Shown here: in pieces, positions 2,207-26,065 of the stretch
How the letters are laid out: every line of letters begins with the position of its first letter
How positions within the stretch are numbered: the stretch's first letter is position 1
Assembly (NCBI RefSeq): GCF_905175375.1
Contig: NZ_CAJIMS010000001.1
Span: 3,224,001 to 3,288,000 of the forward strand
Length of the DNA: 64,000 nt
Reading direction: 5' to 3'
From: Chryseobacterium aquaeductus
Lineage (GTDB): Bacteria; Bacteroidota; Bacteroidia; Flavobacteriales; Weeksellaceae
The notes under the pieces: generated by a model
Seen by the model: the letters and a program-made list of their open reading frames with translations, nothing else
What the model was told of the DNA's origin: nothing
The model's database searches: none
Translations under genes and position numbers: made by a program

Positions 2207-3394
2207 ATGCACATTAAGCCTACCAATATTCCACTTCCGCTGAAATTAACCTTCTTCATTTTTTCGATGGTGCTCAATTGTATGGGCATTGTGATTTTAC
2301 AATTATCTGAGGAAAATATAGGTTATGATCAACTAGGATTTTTAGAATCTTTCAAAGATCTTCCTATTGCATTTATCTCTCTGTTTGCCGTTAATTTCAT
2401 TGGTAAAATAGGAACTAAAAAATCTCTTATTTTGGCATTGAGCATTGTGGGTATTTGCTCTTTTATACTTCCTTTTGTACAAGTATTTTGGTTTTATAAA
2501 CTTTGGTTTGCAATCATAGGAACTTCTTTTGCAATCGGGAAAATATGTGTTTATGGCATAATAAGAAACAATATTATAGAAGAAAAATCTCTTGCGAAAA
2601 CCATGAATAGTGTGGAAGCTTCTTTTATGATAGGTATTTTTGTAGTAAATGTAGGTTTTGGATGGTTAATCGCCAGCGAATACTCAGAATATTGGAAATT
2701 TGGTTTTATATTTATCTCGTTGGTGTCTCTTCTTACGATTTATCTTTTGAGTAAAGCTCATATCATTGAAGCCGATAAGAATATTAAAGCCAATATTATT
2801 TCAAATTTATTATCATTCAGAAAAACGCCAGTCTTACTATTTATTGCAATAATATTTTTTATTGTTTTTACGGAGCAAAGTTTCAATTCTTGGTTGCCTG
2901 CTTTTTATAAGAATCACTTGAAGGTCAACTCTTTCTTCGCAATACAAGCATCTTCCATGCTTGCGGTATTTTCTTATATCGGAAGGATCATTACCGCAAA
3001 TATTATCCAAAGATTTGCATTGCGATCGTATTTTATTTTCTGTCTCGGATGTATAATTTCACTTTTGAGCATTATTTTCTGGATTCAGTATTTTGGAAGC
3101 GGAGATTCTGAAATATTGCTTTATCTGTTTCCGGTTATCGGTTTGTTTCTCTCACCACTTTATCCTGTAATCAATTCTAAAATGATTTCACAGATCGACA
3201 AACAAAAAATAAATACCTTCACCTCCGTCATTGTAATTTTCTCCTCATTGGGAAGTTCTGTAAGTTCAATATTAATGTCTTTACTATTTAATAATCAAAT
3301 GCTTACATTTTATTCTCTTTATATTTTGATGGCTGTTGTCATCATATTTATATTGAGTTTAATATATTTTAAACAAGAACAATTCAGAAATTAA
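2207..3394 (+). CDS. MFS transporter
   Basis: A 395-residue, very hydrophobic protein with about 12 predicted membrane segments, the usual size and topology of the major facilitator superfamily. The loop IGKIGTKKSL after the second helix resembles the conserved MFS loop between helices 2 and 3. The most likely role is inner-membrane uptake of a small solute delivered by the divergent SusC receptor. It is followed after 23 bases by a Nudix-type regulator on the same strand, so the two are probably co-transcribed. Substrate cannot be read from sequence; a sugar is inferred from the neighbours. Confidence 0.75.
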   Translation: MHIKPTNIPLPLKLTFFIFSMVLNCMGIVILQLSEENIGYDQLGFLESFKDLPIAFISLFAVNFIGKIGTKKSLILALSIVGICSFILPFVQVFWFYKLWFAIIGTSFAIGKICVYGIIRNNIIEEKSLAKTMNSVEASFMIGIFVVNVGFGWLIASEYSEYWKFGFIFISLVSLLTIYLLSKAHIIEADKNIKANIISNLLSFRKTPVLLFIAIIFFIVFTEQSFNSWLPAFYKNHLKVNSFFAIQASSMLAVFSYIGRIITANIIQRFALRSYFIFCLGCIISLLSIIFWIQYFGSGDSEILLYLFPVIGLFLSPLYPVINSKMISQIDKQKINTFTSVIVIFSSLGSSVSSILMSLLFNNQMLTFYSLYILMAVVIIFILSLIYFKQEQFRN

Positions 3395-3417
3395 AAAATA
3401 GTTTTATTTTTACATAC

Positions 3418-4158
3418 ATGAAAACGGACGGCTCAAAAAATATAGAAACACTAAAACAGCTTATTGAGGAGAAAGATTTTATTCCTAATATCTCTGTAGA
3501 CTGCACCATCTTTGGTTTTCATAATAATATTCTGAAGGTTTTGCTTTTAAAATATCATGACTTAGATCTTTGGTCACTGCCAGGCGGTTTTGTTTTTCTC
3601 AATGAAGATCTGCGTGAAGCTGCAGACAGAGTTTTGTACGAAAGAACACATCTTAAAGGTCTTTTTTTGGAGCAGTTTCATACTTTCGGAAGATTAGATC
3701 GTACCGAAAACAATGTTCACAGAACTCTTATCAGTAATAAAGGCCTTGATGTACCAAAAGATCACTGGATTCTACAGCGGTTTATCACAGTTGGATACTG
3801 CAGTCTGATCGATTTTTCTTTAGCAAATACATTTCCGGATGCATTCAACGAAACCTGTGCTTGGTTTGAAGTAAGTAAACTACCGAATATGGCGTTTGAT
3901 CATGACAGAGTAATCGCTGAAGGTTTAGAATATCTGCGCAAAAATATTGATACTCAGGTTGCTGCAAGCAATCTTTTGCCGGAGAAGTTTACGATGAAAG
4001 ATCTTCAGTCTCTGTACGAAACTATTTTGGGCGAAAAATTCAGAAGAAATAATTTCCAACGTAAGATATTGAGCATGAACTCATTGGAAAGACTTGAAAA
4101 ACTATTCGACGGCTCTGCCAACAAAGCACCTTATCTCTACAAATTTATCAAAGAATAG
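3418..4158 (+). CDS. Nudix-domain transcriptional regulator (NrtR/AraR-like)
   Basis: 246 residues: a Nudix fold at about 22-150 and a C-terminal winged helix at about 190-246 (FTMKDLQSLYETILG onward), the architecture of NrtR-type regulators. The Nudix box runs GGFVFLNEDLREAAD followed by RVLYERTHL; the catalytic RE-x-EE core is replaced by RV-x-YE, so hydrolase activity is unlikely and ligand sensing is more probable. In Bacteroidota such proteins are known to control sugar (for example arabinose) or NAD genes. Placement behind an MFS gene and near a SusC receptor fits a local sugar regulator. The ligand is not known. Confidence 0.8.
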   Translation: MKTDGSKNIETLKQLIEEKDFIPNISVDCTIFGFHNNILKVLLLKYHDLDLWSLPGGFVFLNEDLREAADRVLYERTHLKGLFLEQFHTFGRLDRTENNVHRTLISNKGLDVPKDHWILQRFITVGYCSLIDFSLANTFPDAFNETCAWFEVSKLPNMAFDHDRVIAEGLEYLRKNIDTQVAASNLLPEKFTMKDLQSLYETILGEKFRRNNFQRKILSMNSLERLEKLFDGSANKAPYLYKFIKE

Positions 4159-8700: not shown

Positions 8701-9110
8701 TATTCTACAACGATTGTTTTGGTAATAAAATTGTTATCGCCATTCCAAAATTTAAAAGTGTAAGTTCCCACCTGTTGCGGACTAAAATTGATCTGATTTG
8801 CAGAAACATAATTAGCCTGCGTGCAAGAACCATTCGTATGATACTGATAAGCAGTTATATGTCTCGAAAAATTACCTGAATGTACATAATCATATCCATA
8901 AAATCCCTGACATTTTGATGCATACGTAGAATAAGTTCTTATGCTCTGAACGCTAAAAACAGACATCGTATCATTTATTATTTTTACACTGTCAATCTTC
9001 ACTTTATCTGCAAATTCGATGGTTTCGTAATCATCTTCATCTTTACAGGAAGTAGTGAAAACTCCAGCAACAAAAATGAGAGACAGACTCAGTTTTACTA
9101 TAGATTTCAT
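8700..9110 (-). CDS. Small lipoprotein of unknown function
   Basis: 136 residues from the preferred ATG at 9110; a longer reading to 9146 would put 12 residues before the signal peptide. The N-terminus MKSIVKLSLS plus a hydrophobic stretch ends in FTTSCKDEDD, a relaxed Bacteroidota lipobox with an acidic tail after the cysteine, suggesting outer-membrane sorting. The C-terminal part (QVGTYTFKFWNG) looks like a beta-sandwich end. No family recognised. Its stop overlaps the next start (TAATG). Confidence 0.6.
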   Translation of the reverse strand: MKSIVKLSLSLIFVAGVFTTSCKDEDDYETIEFADKVKIDSVKIINDTMSVFSVQSIRTYSTYASKCQGFYGYDYVHSGNFSRHITAYQYHTNGSCTQANYVSANQINFSPQQVGTYTFKFWNGDNNFITKTIVVE

Positions 9111-9170
9111 GATATTGGATTTAGAACATTTAAATATAGATCGCAAACAAAACTTATTATTGATGCTAAT

Positions 9171-9806
9171 TTACGAATTAAAATTACCTTTTGATAAATA
9201 AACTACTTTTTTTGTATCAAAAAATTCTTCTTCAAAATAATTTTTAAGATTAAAGATTTCGCACTTCAATCCGGCCAATTCTTCAGCCAAATCTCCACCT
9301 TTTAAATATAAAACGCCGTTGTGTTTTGTGTTAAATTGTTCTTTTTCAAATTTCCCTTTCAGCCATCTCAGAAATTCCGGCATTTGGGTCACTGCTCTGC
9401 TTACGACAAAATGAAATTTTTCTTTTACTTTTTCTGCTCTGCCATGAATTGCAGTAACGTTAGTCAATCCAATACCTTCTGCTACTGCATTTACAACGGT
9501 AATTTTTTTTCCTATAGAATCAATCAATGTAAATATTGTTTCAGGATAAAGAATTGCTAAAGGAATTCCTGGGAATCCACCACCGGTTCCGATATCTAAA
9601 ACTTTTGTTCCCGGAGCAAATTCCATGATTTTTGCAACGCCTAAGGAATGCAGAATATGCTTTTCATAAAGGGATTCCATATCTTTTCTGGAGATTACAT
9701 TTATTTTTTCGTTCCACTCACCATATAGACTTTCTAATTTTGAAAACTGCTCAATTTGTTTTTCGGAAAGTTCCGGGAAATATTTTTGAATTAACGCTAT
9801 AGACAT
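9171..9806 (-). CDS. rsmG: 16S rRNA (guanine-N7)-methyltransferase RsmG
   Basis: 211 residues from the ATG at 9806 (MSIALIQKYFPEL); the upstream alternative adds 7 residues without family support. VLDIGTGGGFPGIPLAI is the SAM-binding loop of RsmG/GidB, and VVSRAVTQMPEFLRW matches the family C-terminal half. The enzyme methylates G527 of 16S rRNA. It precedes the lipoprotein-DUF922-AddB set by about 60 bases on the same strand. Confidence 0.95.
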   Translation of the reverse strand: MSIALIQKYFPELSEKQIEQFSKLESLYGEWNEKINVISRKDMESLYEKHILHSLGVAKIMEFAPGTKVLDIGTGGGFPGIPLAILYPETIFTLIDSIGKKITVVNAVAEGIGLTNVTAIHGRAEKVKEKFHFVVSRAVTQMPEFLRWLKGKFEKEQFNTKHNGVLYLKGGDLAEELAGLKCEIFNLKNYFEEEFFDTKKVVYLSKGNFNS

Positions 9807-9848
9807 ACGATTGATAATATAAAGCAAAAATAAGTTTAAAATATAAAA

Positions 9849-9875
9849 AAAACTTCTTTGTAGAAAAGAAGTTTT
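9849..9875 (-). terminator. Terminator after the TraB-like gene
   Basis: An 11-bp perfect stem (9849-9859 with 9865-9875, 5-base loop) is followed on the minus strand by a T run. It separates the TraB-like gene from rsmG. Confidence 0.8.
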
Positions 9876-9898
9876 GAGAATTGTGAGTAACTTTTATT

Positions 9899-10615
9899 TT
9901 AAAGTTTACCACTTATGAGCTCATAGCCATTATTTAAGAAGCCAGAATGAAGCATAAATTTATGACCTTTACCGTACAAAAAAATAATATTTTTATTTTG
10001 CAATAATGAAATTTTGGCTAAAGCTTCACTATTCCTTAATTCATCAGTAAAATAATACTTAGGAAGCTTCTTTTTTTCCTTACAGAGGTATTTTGCTGAT
10101 AATGGTGTTTGCAAGTCACATTGTGATAAACTTATTGCACCATATTTTAATTCATATTTTTCAATAAGATTATGAAGTGTCATGTCTACATTATAATCAG
10201 TATTTACTATCCCAACTCTATCATTATTTTGGAGTAAATAATTTTTAGTAGAATATTCTTTTGGTAAACTTTGAATATTATTATCATTAATATTAGCAAT
10301 ATTATATCCAACTATTTTTCTTGCTTTTTTTGCATTTATTTCAAAGTCATCCTTATTAATTTCAAAAATAATACTTTCATAAGCTACTATAAAACCTTCC
10401 TTTCTTAAAGAGTCAACTTCTTTTTTAATAGAATCATAATATTCTTTTTTACCAACATGCACCGTGGGAAGATAAATTAAGTATTTCCCTTCTTCATTTG
10501 TGTATACGAGCTTTTTCTTATTAATGTTTTTATCTGCAATCAATCCTACTAAGAAAGCTTGAGAAAAATTTAAGGTAAAGTACAAAAGCAACAGAAGTGT
10601 CAATCTTTCTTTCAT
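9899..10615 (-). CDS. TraB/GumN-like secreted protein
   Basis: 238 residues with an N-terminal signal (LLLLYFTLNFSQA). IYLPTVHVGKKEYYDSI, then IVAYES and near the end LYGKGHKFML give the H...E...GxGH pattern of TraB/PrgY/GumN-type proteins, proposed to be metal-dependent proteases. The match is by pattern only, and the protein is shorter than most TraB members. It has its own terminator and appears monocistronic. Confidence 0.45.
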   Translation of the reverse strand: MKERLTLLLLLYFTLNFSQAFLVGLIADKNINKKKLVYTNEEGKYLIYLPTVHVGKKEYYDSIKKEVDSLRKEGFIVAYESIIFEINKDDFEINAKKARKIVGYNIANINDNNIQSLPKEYSTKNYLLQNNDRVGIVNTDYNVDMTLHNLIEKYELKYGAISLSQCDLQTPLSAKYLCKEKKKLPKYYFTDELRNSEALAKISLLQNKNIIFLYGKGHKFMLHSGFLNNGYELISGKL

Positions 10616-21954: not shown

Positions 21955-23121
21955 TTAATTCAAATATTCCCTTTTATCAAGGGTAAACTCCAGAATTTTG
22001 CCATCACGTTTTACTTTTACGGTGATTTGATTTTGAGCTTTTTCTACCCTGTTGAGTAAATATTGACAAGACAATTCCTGATCAAGATTTTCGAAACTTG
22101 TTTCGTTGATGCTTATAATCTCATCATCAACCTTTACAGGGATGTTGTTTCCCTGAAAAACCAGTACCACTTTTGCTTTATAATCAATAAAACGGTAAGC
22201 AAACCCGAATGATTCTAGCTTTGTAGGATTATCTTTGATGCGGTGGAGATAGATTTTACTGTTCTGCCAATCGATGATGAAGGTAAACTTTTTGAGGAAC
22301 TCATTTCCCAATAAGCTGGAATTTCCGGTCATAACGATTTCGTTTTCAAATTTTTTCGCATCTAATAATATTTCATTGACTCTAAAATGATAATTCATCT
22401 GAGGTTTTCCTGTACCAAAGGCTCCCACCGAATTCATACCGTACGTTTCTACAGATTTTACCGCTCCGTTTTTGGGATCGTAGTTGTTTTCTAAAATCTT
22501 GATGCTTCCCGTAAATCCTGTATCGAACGTAAGATTCATTTTTTTATCTAAAATTTGAGATTCTATGAGAGGCGTTTTTTGTGGATGCGATTTGAAACTG
22601 AAAACCGTCTCATATTCTTTAGTGGAAAACTGTTTAAGATCAGTCGTAGCTTCCAAGAGGTTTTCAGAATAATTAATTCTCCAAAACAGTTTTGCCATCT
22701 GGTTGGCTCCTATGATGCCGTCAATTTTCAGACATCCGAATTCCGGACCTTCAAGATTGATCACCACTGCACCGATATTCTTAAAAACTATCTGATCAAT
22801 CGTCATTTCCGGCAAGATGGTGAAAATCTGTTCTTGTTTGTTTTTTTGAGAATCTTTTACTTTGCTTGTGTGCTTTTTGGTAAGATTCAGTTCGTTGTAC
22901 ACGGTATGAGAGATTACCGTTGGCGCGCCGGTATCAAACAAAAACTGATACATTTTTCCATTGATTGATACATTTACCAAAGGAAGTTCGCTTGTGAATT
23001 TCAGGTTTATTTTCTCCACCGGATTTTTCAAAATGGCTTCTCCCCCTTCAAAAAACCTCTTTCCCTGAGCAGATATGCTGGTAATACAGAAGATTAAAAA
23101 CAAAAATAAACTTTTCTTCAT
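21955..23121 (-). CDS. Secreted retropepsin-like aspartic protease with PDZ-like end
   Basis: 388 residues with a signal peptide (ends TSISAQ). Two DTG active-site motifs are visible, FDTGAPT at 62-68 and FDTGFTG at 199-205, one per lobe, so this is a two-lobe clan AA protease in one chain. The C-terminal 90 residues (VDDEIISINETSFENL) look like a PDZ domain. Predicted periplasmic or outer-surface; substrate unknown. Monocistronic. Confidence 0.8.
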   Translation of the reverse strand: MKKSLFLFLIFCITSISAQGKRFFEGGEAILKNPVEKINLKFTSELPLVNVSINGKMYQFLFDTGAPTVISHTVYNELNLTKKHTSKVKDSQKNKQEQIFTILPEMTIDQIVFKNIGAVVINLEGPEFGCLKIDGIIGANQMAKLFWRINYSENLLEATTDLKQFSTKEYETVFSFKSHPQKTPLIESQILDKKMNLTFDTGFTGSIKILENNYDPKNGAVKSVETYGMNSVGAFGTGKPQMNYHFRVNEILLDAKKFENEIVMTGNSSLLGNEFLKKFTFIIDWQNSKIYLHRIKDNPTKLESFGFAYRFIDYKAKVVLVFQGNNIPVKVDDEIISINETSFENLDQELSCQYLLNRVEKAQNQITVKVKRDGKILEFTLDKREYLN

Positions 23122-23169
23122 AGCGTTTAATTTGCACTAAAGTAGGGAATTTTTGATTACAATTCTTTA

Positions 23170-23595
23170 TTAATATGCAGTGGTACTCATTATAAATTCA
23201 TCTGACTGTCTCGGAATGTCATCTGTACGTTTCGGAATGTCATCTGTACGCTTCGGAATGTCATCTGTACGCTTCGGAATGTCATCTGTACGCTTCGGAA
23301 TGTCATCTGTATGCTTCGGAAAACCATCTGTACGCTTCGGAATACCATCTGTACGCTTCGGAATTCTAGCTGACAACCTCGGAATGTCATCTTGCTGCTT
23401 CGGAATACCATCTGTACGCTTCGGAATGCTAGCTGTCAACCTCGGAATGTCATCTGTACGCTTCGGAATGTTGCTGCTTCGGAATGTGATCTGACCACCT
23501 CGGAATGTCATCTTGCTGCTTCGGAATATGAACTGTACGCTTCGGAATACTAGCTGACTGTCTTGGAAAGTTGTCTGAACACTTCTAGATGTCAT
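23170..23595 (-). CDS. Possible heptapeptide-repeat protein over the minisatellite (doubtful)
   Basis: 141 codons from an ATG at 23595 in an A-rich context (MTSRSVQTTF). The first part reads xFRSxQx heptads; after the short unit near 23470 the frame switches to IPKRTDD/IPRLTAS heptads. The frame switch inside the protein and open frames on the other strand argue that this is a by-product of the 21-bp repeat. It is listed only because it has a plausible start and no internal stop. Confidence 0.2.
   Translation of the reverse strand: MTSRSVQTTFQDSQLVFRSVQFIFRSSKMTFRGGQITFRSSNIPKRTDDIPRLTASIPKRTDGIPKQQDDIPRLSARIPKRTDGIPKRTDGFPKHTDDIPKRTDDIPKRTDDIPKRTDDIPKRTDDIPRQSDEFIMSTTAY
23207..23590. repeat. 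21-bp tandem repeat (minisatellite), about 19 units
   Basis: The unit CTTCGGAATGTCATCTGTACG repeats with period 21. Units 1-8 are nearly identical; later ones vary in the TCATCTGTACG half (TCTTGCTG, CTAGCTGACAAC, TGATCTGACCAC) while the TTCGGAAT core is kept. Lengths 20 and 22 alternate in places, keeping phase, and one unit near 23470 is short. Several frames on both strands are open through it, giving heptapeptides (on the minus strand RTDDIPK or FRSVQMT). Confidence 0.9.
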
Positions 23596-23701
23596 TTTTA
23601 TATTTTAGAAGATTATTGTTATAGAAAAATTTATTTCTATTTTTTTTAGGCAGTAAGTTCATTATAGAAATATTCTATTGAGATTTAAATGCGAATTTTT
23701 C

Positions 23702-23740
23702 AAATATGAAACCGCCCATGTAGAAGGCGGTTTCATATTT
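23702..23740. terminator. Strong hairpin downstream of the Rex-like pair
   Basis: A perfect 15-bp stem (23702-23716 with 23726-23740, 9-base loop) with a GC-rich head and A/T tail. It probably ends transcription of the minus-strand pair at 23815-25250. Confidence 0.8.
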
Positions 23741-23814
23741 ATATTGAAGTTATAAAATGGCTCTAAAATTATTCTCGTTCTAAAAATAGTGTAGTAAACC
23801 GAATATTATTTTTA

Positions 23815-24300
23815 TTAAGATTGTCTTATAGATCTTAATACTTTTAGTATTATTTTTATAAAAATGAAAATACGCTGTAATACAACTGCAAAAAGAGCTA
23901 CATACAAAGAAAAAACTAATGCTCTAATATCGAACATACAATTTAGTATCTTAATTTCTTCTTTTGGAATGTTATCGTTAGTTAATATAATAATAAAAGA
24001 AAAAGCAATAACTATCAAATTTTGATATAGCAAAATTTTACAAAATTTTAGAAATTCCGAATAGGTTTCATTAGATCTAAATTTTTCAAATAAATACAAA
24101 CATCCTATAAATATTCCAAAAAAGATAGAACATACATCAATTAACTTGTCATTAAATAAATTAGTACTTTCAGAATATTTGAACTTCAGATAATAAGCCA
24201 GTAAAAAAGTTAATATAAAAACAAAATAAGGTATAGCTCTTTTTACAAGAGCCCTTCTTCTATATCTTTCAATATTATTTATATGGCTTTCATGAATCAT
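23815..24300 (-). CDS. Four-helix membrane protein of a two-gene system (RexB-like arrangement)
   Basis: 161 residues. A short basic N-terminus (IERYRRRALVKRA) is followed by four predicted membrane helices, at about 24-40, 56-72, 90-106 and 128-150, with a charged loop between helices 2 and 3 (FEKFRSNETYSEFLKF). Size, helix count and the basic loop resemble lambda RexB (144 residues, four helices). Its start overlaps the upstream 317-residue gene by 4 bases (ATGA), so the two are translationally coupled. No sequence family is recognised with certainty; an SLATT-type effector is an alternative. Confidence 0.55.
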   Translation of the reverse strand: MIHESHINNIERYRRRALVKRAIPYFVFILTFLLAYYLKFKYSESTNLFNDKLIDVCSIFFGIFIGCLYLFEKFRSNETYSEFLKFCKILLYQNLIVIAFSFIIILTNDNIPKEEIKILNCMFDIRALVFSLYVALFAVVLQRIFIFIKIILKVLRSIRQS

Positions 24301-25250
24301 AAGTAACTTTCTAATAAAGAATATTCTTTTTCATAGGTTTCTTTGATTTTGATTGTTCTTTCATCCTTTTGAAGATTAAAATCTAATCTTGGTACATCAA
24401 TTTTAAATTGTGTGAAATAAACATCTCCAACTAAGTTTATTGGAATCATTTTCCCAGAAGAACTATTGTAACCACATATCTCGATCGAGTCAATATTCTG
24501 CCTCACTTGACTATATCCTAACAATTTTCCAAAATTTCTAATTATTGGTTCAATTTTATTTTTATATAACCCACCAGTAGTTTTAGGATTTCTAACAGTA
24601 AATTCAATTTCTGCAAAATCACTATTGAGTTCTGCAGCATTTTGAATTTCAGGAAGAAAATCAAGATCAACTCTATCTTCTAATGATGAATTAATTTGAG
24701 CGACTTCCCTAAGTAAATTCTTGGGTTGGTAAACCTTCATTTTAAAACTTTTATAAAGTCCCATTTGAAGAGCTCGTTCATATTCATGTTTGCGAAATAT
24801 TGTAACAAAATTTGTATCAACTATAACTTCATTTTTTAATGTTGCAGAGTCATGATAACATTTGTAAATATATTGATGGAAAACGTCTAAGTAAATGCTA
24901 TTCTTATTTATTTCAAAAAAAAGAACTTTTAGTCTTTTACAGTATAATAAAATATTTCCATAAACGATACCTTCATCATTATTCACATCTAACGCCGAAA
25001 CGATCTTTGTTCTTCTGTGAATTTTTGCAGGTAAGTCCTTATCAATTGTACTCCTAATAAATCCAATCAAGTAATTCTCAGTATCCTCAATAACTGAAAA
25101 ATGAACCATCTTCTGATTTACAAATTTTTCTTTATCATTTATGTCGGAATGTTTTAAAATTTCATCAAATGTTATACTATTACTTCCTTGAGGAAATCTT
25201 AATGAAACGGAAACTACATCGATTTTACAGGTTTTAGATCTATTGTTCAT
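24297..25250 (-). CDS. Cytosolic partner of the membrane protein (RexA/DUF4747-like candidate)
   Basis: 317 residues, no signal or membrane segment. The N-terminal half (FSVIEDTENYLIGFIRSTID, then a charged stretch, then GNILLYCKRLKVLFFEINKN and LDVFHQYIYKC) alternates strands and helices in the order seen in lambda RexA: a buried strand reporting a state, a disordered linker, a second strand, then a helix. The rest (VIVDTNFVTIFRK, NSDFAEIEFTVRN) has no clear family. The gene comes first in its operon with the four-helix gene second, as in rexA-rexB. A -7 box lies at 25278-25285. The assignment is inference by pattern and layout. Confidence 0.45.
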   Translation of the reverse strand: MNNRSKTCKIDVVSVSLRFPQGSNSITFDEILKHSDINDKEKFVNQKMVHFSVIEDTENYLIGFIRSTIDKDLPAKIHRRTKIVSALDVNNDEGIVYGNILLYCKRLKVLFFEINKNSIYLDVFHQYIYKCYHDSATLKNEVIVDTNFVTIFRKHEYERALQMGLYKSFKMKVYQPKNLLREVAQINSSLEDRVDLDFLPEIQNAAELNSDFAEIEFTVRNPKTTGGLYKNKIEPIIRNFGKLLGYSQVRQNIDSIEICGYNSSSGKMIPINLVGDVYFTQFKIDVPRLDFNLQKDERTIKIKETYEKEYSLLESYL

Positions 25251-25277
25251 TTACTTTAATTAATGTTACGAATTTTA

Positions 25278-25285
25278 CAAATATA
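25278..25285 (-). promoter_or_regulatory. -7 box of the two-gene Rex-like operon
   Basis: Read on the minus strand, TATATTTG matches TAnnTTTG 28 bases before the ATG of the 317-residue gene. The pair therefore appears to have its own promoter. Confidence 0.5.
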
Positions 25286-25350
25286 ATCTTTACAGTAATT
25301 GTGGTTATCCGTATTTACACGGTATTTTAATATTTAAATTGCATAATAAT

Positions 25351-25926
25351 TTATATCTTATCCAAAATCTTCTTCGGCAGCACCTTGACCAATTGAGATT
25401 TGATTTCTTTTTCTACGACAATGATCTTCCATGTTTTTCGGTCTTTGGAGATGGCACAGGCTCTCATTGGGGCATTGATGATGTAAGAACCTTCACTGGC
25501 GATGTATTTTACGTTGGCTTTACCGTATTTTGAGGTGAGCATTTCGCCTATATTTTTTCTCATAGGTTCCTCCATAGAACTTACATTACCTTTCATCTTA
25601 AGGTAATAATTGGCGATAGAGAAATATTCTCCTTTGATGAGTTCTGGTTTCTCGATATTGCCAAACTTCAAATCTTGCACATCAATCTTTACAAAAGGAT
25701 TGTTGTACGTCATATTCATCAGTTGCGTCATCTGATCTTTTGAGATCACGGTAAAAAAACCGGGATAAATGCAATTGATCGCCTGATCGATTTTTTTAGA
25801 TTTTATGCTGTTGGCAAAATAGGAGATCGTTTTTTTGATAGCCAAACCATCGGGAGTTGCATTTGCCTGTGCAAAGCTAGAAAGTGAGAACAGTACCAGA
25901 AAAATGGTAATAAATTTAATTTTCAT
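25351..25926 (-). CDS. Secreted protein of unknown function
   Basis: 191 residues from MKIKFITIFLVLF (ATG 25926), with a signal peptide ending LSSFAQA. The N-terminal helix (GLAIKKTISYFANSIKSKKID) and the strand-rich rest resemble SnoaL/DUF-type secreted Bacteroidota proteins, but no family is assigned. Monocistronic and divergent from the ABC exporter. Confidence 0.6.
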   Translation of the reverse strand: MKIKFITIFLVLFSLSSFAQANATPDGLAIKKTISYFANSIKSKKIDQAINCIYPGFFTVISKDQMTQLMNMTYNNPFVKIDVQDLKFGNIEKPELIKGEYFSIANYYLKMKGNVSSMEEPMRKNIGEMLTSKYGKANVKYIASEGSYIINAPMRACAISKDRKTWKIIVVEKEIKSQLVKVLPKKILDKI

Positions 25927-26065
25927 GATGATCAATGTATCGAATTTTAAATAATTTCCTCGTCGGAGAATTTTTTCAAATATATGTAAAATTTCACTGT
26001 TTTAATCTCATGAAATCTTCTCCGGCAAATCAAATTTATACCGTCATCTATCCAATTTATATCTG

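Follow-up and report, generated by a model that had tools for sequence, protein, structure and literature searches.

A pair of overlapping genes in Chryseobacterium aquaeductus, here called A and B, most likely encodes a Rex-type abortive-infection module of two components, a reading to which we assign a probability of about 0.72. The pair lies in a stretch of 64,000 nucleotides (contig NZ_CAJIMS010000001.1, positions 3,224,001 to 3,288,000; the whole stretch is referred to as the window). An earlier reading of the sequence alone had likened it to the RexA/RexB exclusion pair of phage lambda, and this likeness is supported by predicted structure, synteny and genomic context: the predicted fold of A picks out lambda RexA, one phage tops the structure searches with both proteins, and defence genes neighbour the pair in some of the related loci. 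The two open reading frames (ORFs), 317 and 161 codons long, overlap by 4 bases, as that reading stated (Table 1), and hydropathy analysis gives four hydrophobic segments in B (17-35, 53-71, 89-107 and 134-152) and none in A, in agreement with a soluble protein and a four-helix membrane protein. Judging from the overlap, the two genes are probably co-transcribed. By predicted fold and layout the pair looks like a Rex pair, while Pfam places it in neither the RexA nor the RexB family, and it is probably a suicide-type antiviral defence that sequence searches alone miss.

When the predicted model of A was searched against the PDB with Foldseek, the crystal structure of lambda RexA was the top match. 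A is thus predicted to have the RexA fold, and the model also resembles RdgC and DNA-binding kinetochore proteins. In BFVD, a library of viral structures, the best match of the A model (E 6.0e-17) was a protein of the phage Siphoviridae sp. ctylc9; lambda RexA is absent among the top 50 matches listed. The AlphaFold2 model of B (pLDDT, the predicted local distance difference test score, 82.5) consists of helices 4-37, 44-74, 78-110 and 125-160 and returned generic helical bundles only when compared with PDB folds. In BFVD its best match again belongs to ctylc9 (E 0.10, probability 0.98; not significant alone), so that the same phage supplies the top match for both proteins in independent searches. 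At rank 4 stands a 165-residue Sbash protein (E 0.78, probability 0.80; likewise not significant alone), which is almost certainly gp31, the membrane component of the published Sbash defence, since this is the sole product of that length among the annotated Sbash coding sequences. Five uncharacterised phage proteins match the A model in BFVD at E 1.9e-8 or better, and for this reason phage-borne members of the A branch may exist, although A found no match in phage, plasmid and viral-contig sequence collections and B none in phages.

Both proteins belong to conserved families, with 49 relatives of A and 48 of B besides the window copy found by protein search. The A alignment comprises 44 rows including the window (P0040, P0044, P0045, P0047, P0048 and P0049 were left out as short), the B alignment A2 45 rows including the window (P0070, P0095, P0096 and P0097 were left out). 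Models from Pfam, PADLOC, NCBIfam and PHROGs assign neither window protein, just as no family had been recognised for either in the sequence-only reading. A non-defence enzyme family for A, named there as counter-evidence, was not found: A falls into no enzyme family, and the library scans assigned it to none with toxic or catalytic activity. Scanned singly, none of the 44 A rows matched Pfam RexA (PF15969) and none of the 45 B rows Pfam RexB (PF15968). The A rows matched 21 Pfam families in all, and DUF4747, formerly listed as an alternative, is not among them. Matches to CDT1_C (4/44 rows, best 0.009) and to CTD9 of ABC-3C (3/44, best 0.0053), among other weak ones, were taken as chance, as was SpoVAB, the commonest match of the B rows (12/45, best 4.9e-5), in view of their helical membrane sequence.

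The family that does touch A is DUF6731 (PF20505), which had been proposed for checking: relatives of A belong to it, while window A itself stays below detection with its model. Six of the 44 A rows match (best 5.9e-8), P0108 exceeds the cut-off (32.8 bits against 27), and a precomputed DUF6731 label is attached to 7 of the 49 relatives, including P0002, which is 82% identical to A. As the first DUF6731 profile contained P0110, itself an A relative, the comparison was repeated with the DUF6731 member of genome G769 alone, which the A-family profile matches with an hhalign probability (Prob) of 70.6 (E 3.9e-5). Over the cut-off, a DUF6731 gene occurs in 1 of 345 phylum genomes, namely G769, which is also the only carrier among 114 genomes of its order; a Pfam RexA gene occurs in 1 of 296 phylum genomes (G882, E 2.4e-42 to 3.2e-42). 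In both cases the next gene encodes a four-helix protein, so the two loci (L012 and L014, Table 1) share the layout described here. The L012 partner matches the lambda RexB profile with Prob 59 (E 9e-5, 71 columns, reversed control Prob 0.25), and parts of a type I restriction locus surround that pair by eye. Neither the Bacteroidota RexA nor P0110 found a match in viral contigs, the Bacteroidota RexB-like protein found none in phages, and the DUF6731 member none in phages and plasmids. In Methanocaldococcus jannaschii, a control genome, a DUF6731 match lies below the curated cut-off. We found no paper on this family under either of its names. Tentatively, and with somewhat less than even confidence, we suggest that the RexA fold has an extensive chromosomal branch, so far unrecognised, in DUF6731, regularly accompanied by a four-helix membrane partner.

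Related loci of the pair itself were sought with two peptide patterns, which yielded at least six. In each of the six distinct loci examined (the window, L001, L002, L003, L005 and L006/L009; L004 was merged with L003, being 97.4% identical over 20.9 kb) B comes directly after A and overlaps it by 4 bases, the opposite of the separate occurrence that had been named as counter-evidence. In addition, for 22 of the 48 B relatives the listed longest contig has exactly the length listed for an A relative, which is circumstantial. The pair is rare and was found in its own genome only among 173 genus and 296 family genomes, and in two of 395 order genomes (its own and G608), these samples overlapping. 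Neighbourhoods of the relatives were covered by two scans of 10 chosen neighbour proteins each. The pair in L003/L004 is preceded by a type I methyltransferase gene and what by eye is a specificity gene, and is followed by genes for an AAA_15 ATPase and HsdR; in L002 it lies about 1.9 kb past the cyclase (PADLOC 6.8e-98) and patatin effector (2.5e-114) of a cyclic oligonucleotide-based antiphage signalling system (CBASS), with one unassigned ORF between. The L009 pair has a PADLOC 'cll' protein (5e-15) nearby, and the stretch around it is phage-like by eye; the neighbours in L001 are a PLD-domain protein that matches DrmC weakly and a weak AAA match, and L005 carries the pair among housekeeping-looking genes. 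Altogether, two of the five loci outside the window lie in or near known defence systems and one possibly does.

In the window the pair stands among ordinary genes, as had been claimed; besides the aspartyl protease, an ABC transporter and a peptidase were recognised by eye in the flanks. The flanking genes of relative G130 are 77% and 80% identical to those of the window. We surveyed this slot through upstream-gene loci from 36 congeners, a non-random set (8, then 28 among the best-scoring of 102 matching out of 171 genomes), 14 of which have both flanks within the fetched stretch. Half of these 14 slots are empty (L062, L098, L104, L089, L091, L094 and L095; 90-445 bp, no ORF of at least 60 codons) and half occupied. 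The cargo of L059, L060 and L061 comprises a PD-Lambda-2-like HigB/helix-turn-helix pair, an OLD-like gene and a DUF4062 (PDC-S60) gene. Among congeners with a single flank within the stretch, G141 carries a NACHT gene next after the upstream gene, with a PD-Lambda-1 gene beside its protease, and G024 carries a DpnII-type methylase. The slot resembles a small hotspot of accessory genes, which are often defence genes. Variable stretches marked by the upstream gene and the protease were seen in L059, L060, L061, L063, L064 and L067, and a DUF6261 gene occurs in the slot regions of L059 (3649-4392, Pfam 1.6e-37) and, by eye, of L064 (5233-5973), L103 (2395-3174) and L105 (2949-3692).

Of the smaller features ascribed to the pair, the terminator has good support, as a stable hairpin of its own although absent from the automatic terminator scan list, and the promoter is a weak candidate: it consists of one motif, TATATTTG, which we take to be a Bacteroidota-type -7 box and whose frequency on each strand of the window is about 0.9 per kb, and sigma-70-like sites show no excess over shuffles (13 against 13.6 expected). 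The basic loop between helices 2 and 3 fits the B family (mean net charge +2.2 over the 45 rows) better than the window member (+1). The adjacent minisatellite is real, and as units resembling it by eye occur in the same gap of two congeners lacking the pair (L091 and L094), it belongs to the slot and not to the pair.

Table 1. Features of the gene pair and its surroundings (window positions), and of two further Bacteroidota loci (positions within the locus)
Feature	Position	Strand	Description
Gene A	24297..25250	-	317-codon ORF; soluble; predicted RexA fold; relatives in Pfam DUF6731
Gene B	23815..24300	-	161-codon ORF; membrane protein of four helices, resembling RexB in size, topology and position
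Overlap of A stop and B start	24297..24300	-	4 bases; retained in 6/6 distinct loci
Candidate Bacteroidota -7 promoter box TATATTTG	25278..25285	-	35 bases upstream of A; weak, chance-frequent
Likely terminator hairpin	23701..23741	-	17 pairs; 73 bases past B; -24 kcal/mol, z -8.26
Variable slot between two conserved genes	23122..25350	.	2229 bp here, 90 bp in relative G130
Minisatellite	23211-23548		21-bp unit, 16.3 copies; between pair and aspartyl protease gene
Gene upstream of A, slot flank	25351-25935		conserved gene
Aspartyl protease gene, downstream flank	21955-23121		conserved gene
L012 (G769), DUF6731 gene and RexB-like four-helix ORF	8787-10140		DUF6731 gene overlapped, then four-helix ORF (start codon uncertain)
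L014 (G882), Pfam RexA gene and four-helix protein	2678-3974		partner unrecognised by Pfam RexB model

A number of observations weigh against the Rex reading. In hhalign comparisons neither the A nor the B family matched the lambda, CarolAnn/Sbash/Sejanus or Butters/Toast groups; Prob was 0.52 for A against RexA (reversed control 0.72) and 0.09 for B against RexB (reversed 0.64). In a gapless profile test the top score was met by 83 of 1000 column shuffles at width 40, where the reversed profile scored higher, by 15 of 1000 at width 60, on an implausible diagonal, and by 69 of 1000 at width 80; a shared-looking stretch (A from 63, RexA from 55, width 40), the best gapless diagonal, was not significant and was dropped. 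The L012 partner does not match the membrane profiles of CarolAnn (Prob 0.20) and Butters (0.41). Aligned by Foldseek, A and RexA show a global root-mean-square deviation of 17.9 and a template modelling score of 0.3, the domains of A being placed differently from the closed RexA crystal form; A is not basic overall (isoelectric point 7.6, family median 8.4), and the structural matches of B are not significant, four-helix bundles resembling many things. As to context, no prophage or repressor was seen near the window pair, so that it differs from a lambda-type immunity region with its CI-like repressor; two of the five relative loci have no clear defence neighbour; and PADLOC recognises cargo in only three of the seven occupied slots, the other four (L100, L103, L105 and L106) having no clear defence gene, as judged by eye only.

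The null hhalign result is nevertheless not evidence against a Rex relationship, because the known Rex groups mostly miss each other as well: the lambda and CarolAnn soluble proteins reach Prob 0.11, and the best known pair, the CarolAnn and Butters membrane proteins, 15.6. The Pfam RexA model also misses CarolAnn gp44 and Butters gp30, and the RexB model CarolAnn gp43, Butters gp31 and the four-helix protein beside the L014 RexA. When ORFs from the fetched loci were ranked (109 soluble, including 13 RexA relatives; 28 membrane, including 9 true RexB relatives and 7 B-family rows), one A-family member reached Prob 7 against RexA and an unrelated ORF 13, and B against RexB (0.64) was at the level of unrelated ORFs (to 1.94).

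By analogy with published relatives, from which dimerisation and DNA binding of A, its trigger, the pore activity of B and phage exclusion are all drawn, A would be the sensor and trigger and B the membrane effector. A, with its predicted RexA fold, would probably dimerise and sense infection, most likely through DNA-protein intermediates of the phage or one of its early proteins. Once triggered, it would activate B in the inner membrane, which would open a pore or otherwise harm the membrane, and the loss of energy would stop growth and leave the phage cycle unfinished. The same fold and layout would also accommodate reversed roles as published for Butters gp30/gp31, a pair of the same layout (PMC7542560 and PMC12894663), with A as a cytosolic antiviral or toxic effector that B tethers at the membrane until infection. 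The sequences do not separate the two modes; however, of the five Rex-like systems described, four (lambda, CarolAnn, Sbash and P. putida; PMC12894663) are taken to have the membrane protein as effector, and A belongs to no recognised toxic or catalytic family, which makes reversed roles unlikely.

It is improbable that the pair does not serve defence at all and that A is a DNA-binding regulator acting with its membrane partner in the response to stress, in RdgC-like control of recombination or in maintaining the locus. The likeness of its fold to RdgC and the kinetochore proteins, the second role of lambda RexA in the lysogeny switch (PMC11077077) and the position of the pair among ordinary genes in the window and L005 would fit such a regulator, but its rarity in the genus (1/173), the constant membrane partner, the type I restriction and CBASS neighbours and a slot that elsewhere holds OLD-like, toxin-antitoxin and DUF4062 genes argue for defence. 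A SLATT or SMODS-associated four-helix effector linked to CBASS or a reverse transcriptase, with an unrelated soluble partner, is very improbable, since B matches PADLOC RTasSLATT (E 0.021) and NCBIfam SLATT_5 (E 0.019; 14.5 bits where the cut-off is 60) only weakly, the soluble protein, with its predicted RexA fold, belongs neither to the cyclases nor to the reverse transcriptases, and the lack of SLATT and S-4TM among the 17 Pfam families matched by the 45 B-family rows largely refutes it.

If the Rex reading is correct, the pair represents a chromosomal Rex-like lineage in or near defence islands whose window proteins are unassigned by Pfam, NCBIfam, PHROGs and PADLOC, and DUF6731 gains a fold and a likely function from it. 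The pair and its relatives would provide new pairs for studying how RexA-type sensors trigger membrane partners, a question standing since Benzer's T4 rII exclusion (PMC12894663). Should the wider DUF6731 proposal also be true, Rex-type membrane immunity would be a general defence-island system of free-living bacteria and possibly, given the M. jannaschii match, of archaea; the lambda pair would then be a side branch carried by a phage, in which a function in the lysogeny switch has been added.

The 2026 P. putida paper counts only five RexAB-like systems as described, all five from phages or prophages (PMC12894663), and chromosomal Rex homologues, some outside prophages, have been mentioned (PMC11077077, PMC6426596, PMC7542560); in the literature we found no Rex homologue described for Flavobacteriia or for DUF6731. 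Like lambda RexA/RexB, the present pair has the soluble gene first and a four-helix membrane gene directly after it, with similar sizes (279 and 144 residues in lambda, 317 and 161 here) and a similar predicted fold of the soluble protein. It differs in lacking the Pfam RexA and RexB families, in the spacing of the genes, which are 15 bases apart in lambda and overlap here, and in its chromosomal location with no cI repressor alongside and no phage genes recognised around it. RdgC, CENP-N and the yeast inner-kinetochore proteins have housekeeping roles. They share the broad fold class of RexA (PMC11077077), with much lower Z scores of 5.9 to 7.1. Sbash gp30/gp31 and CarolAnn gp44/gp43, published two-gene phage defences that require both genes, have the same overlapping-gene layout, and Sbash gp31 is almost certainly the rank-4 match of B; their soluble proteins are longer (372 and 370 residues), they are encoded by actinobacteriophages, and they give no profile match to A or B. 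With both CarolAnn genes present, lytic expression of the attacking phage is undisturbed and the phage protein gp53 becomes toxic; the authors proposed the opening of a channel (PMC6426606). RexABpp of Pseudomonas putida (PP_5643-5644) is prophage-encoded, and its link to RexA shows in HHpred, whereas hhalign shows none for the present pair, the tools and databases being different; RexApp binds DNA, and its overexpression leads to growth arrest and membrane permeability that depend on RexBpp (PMC12894663).
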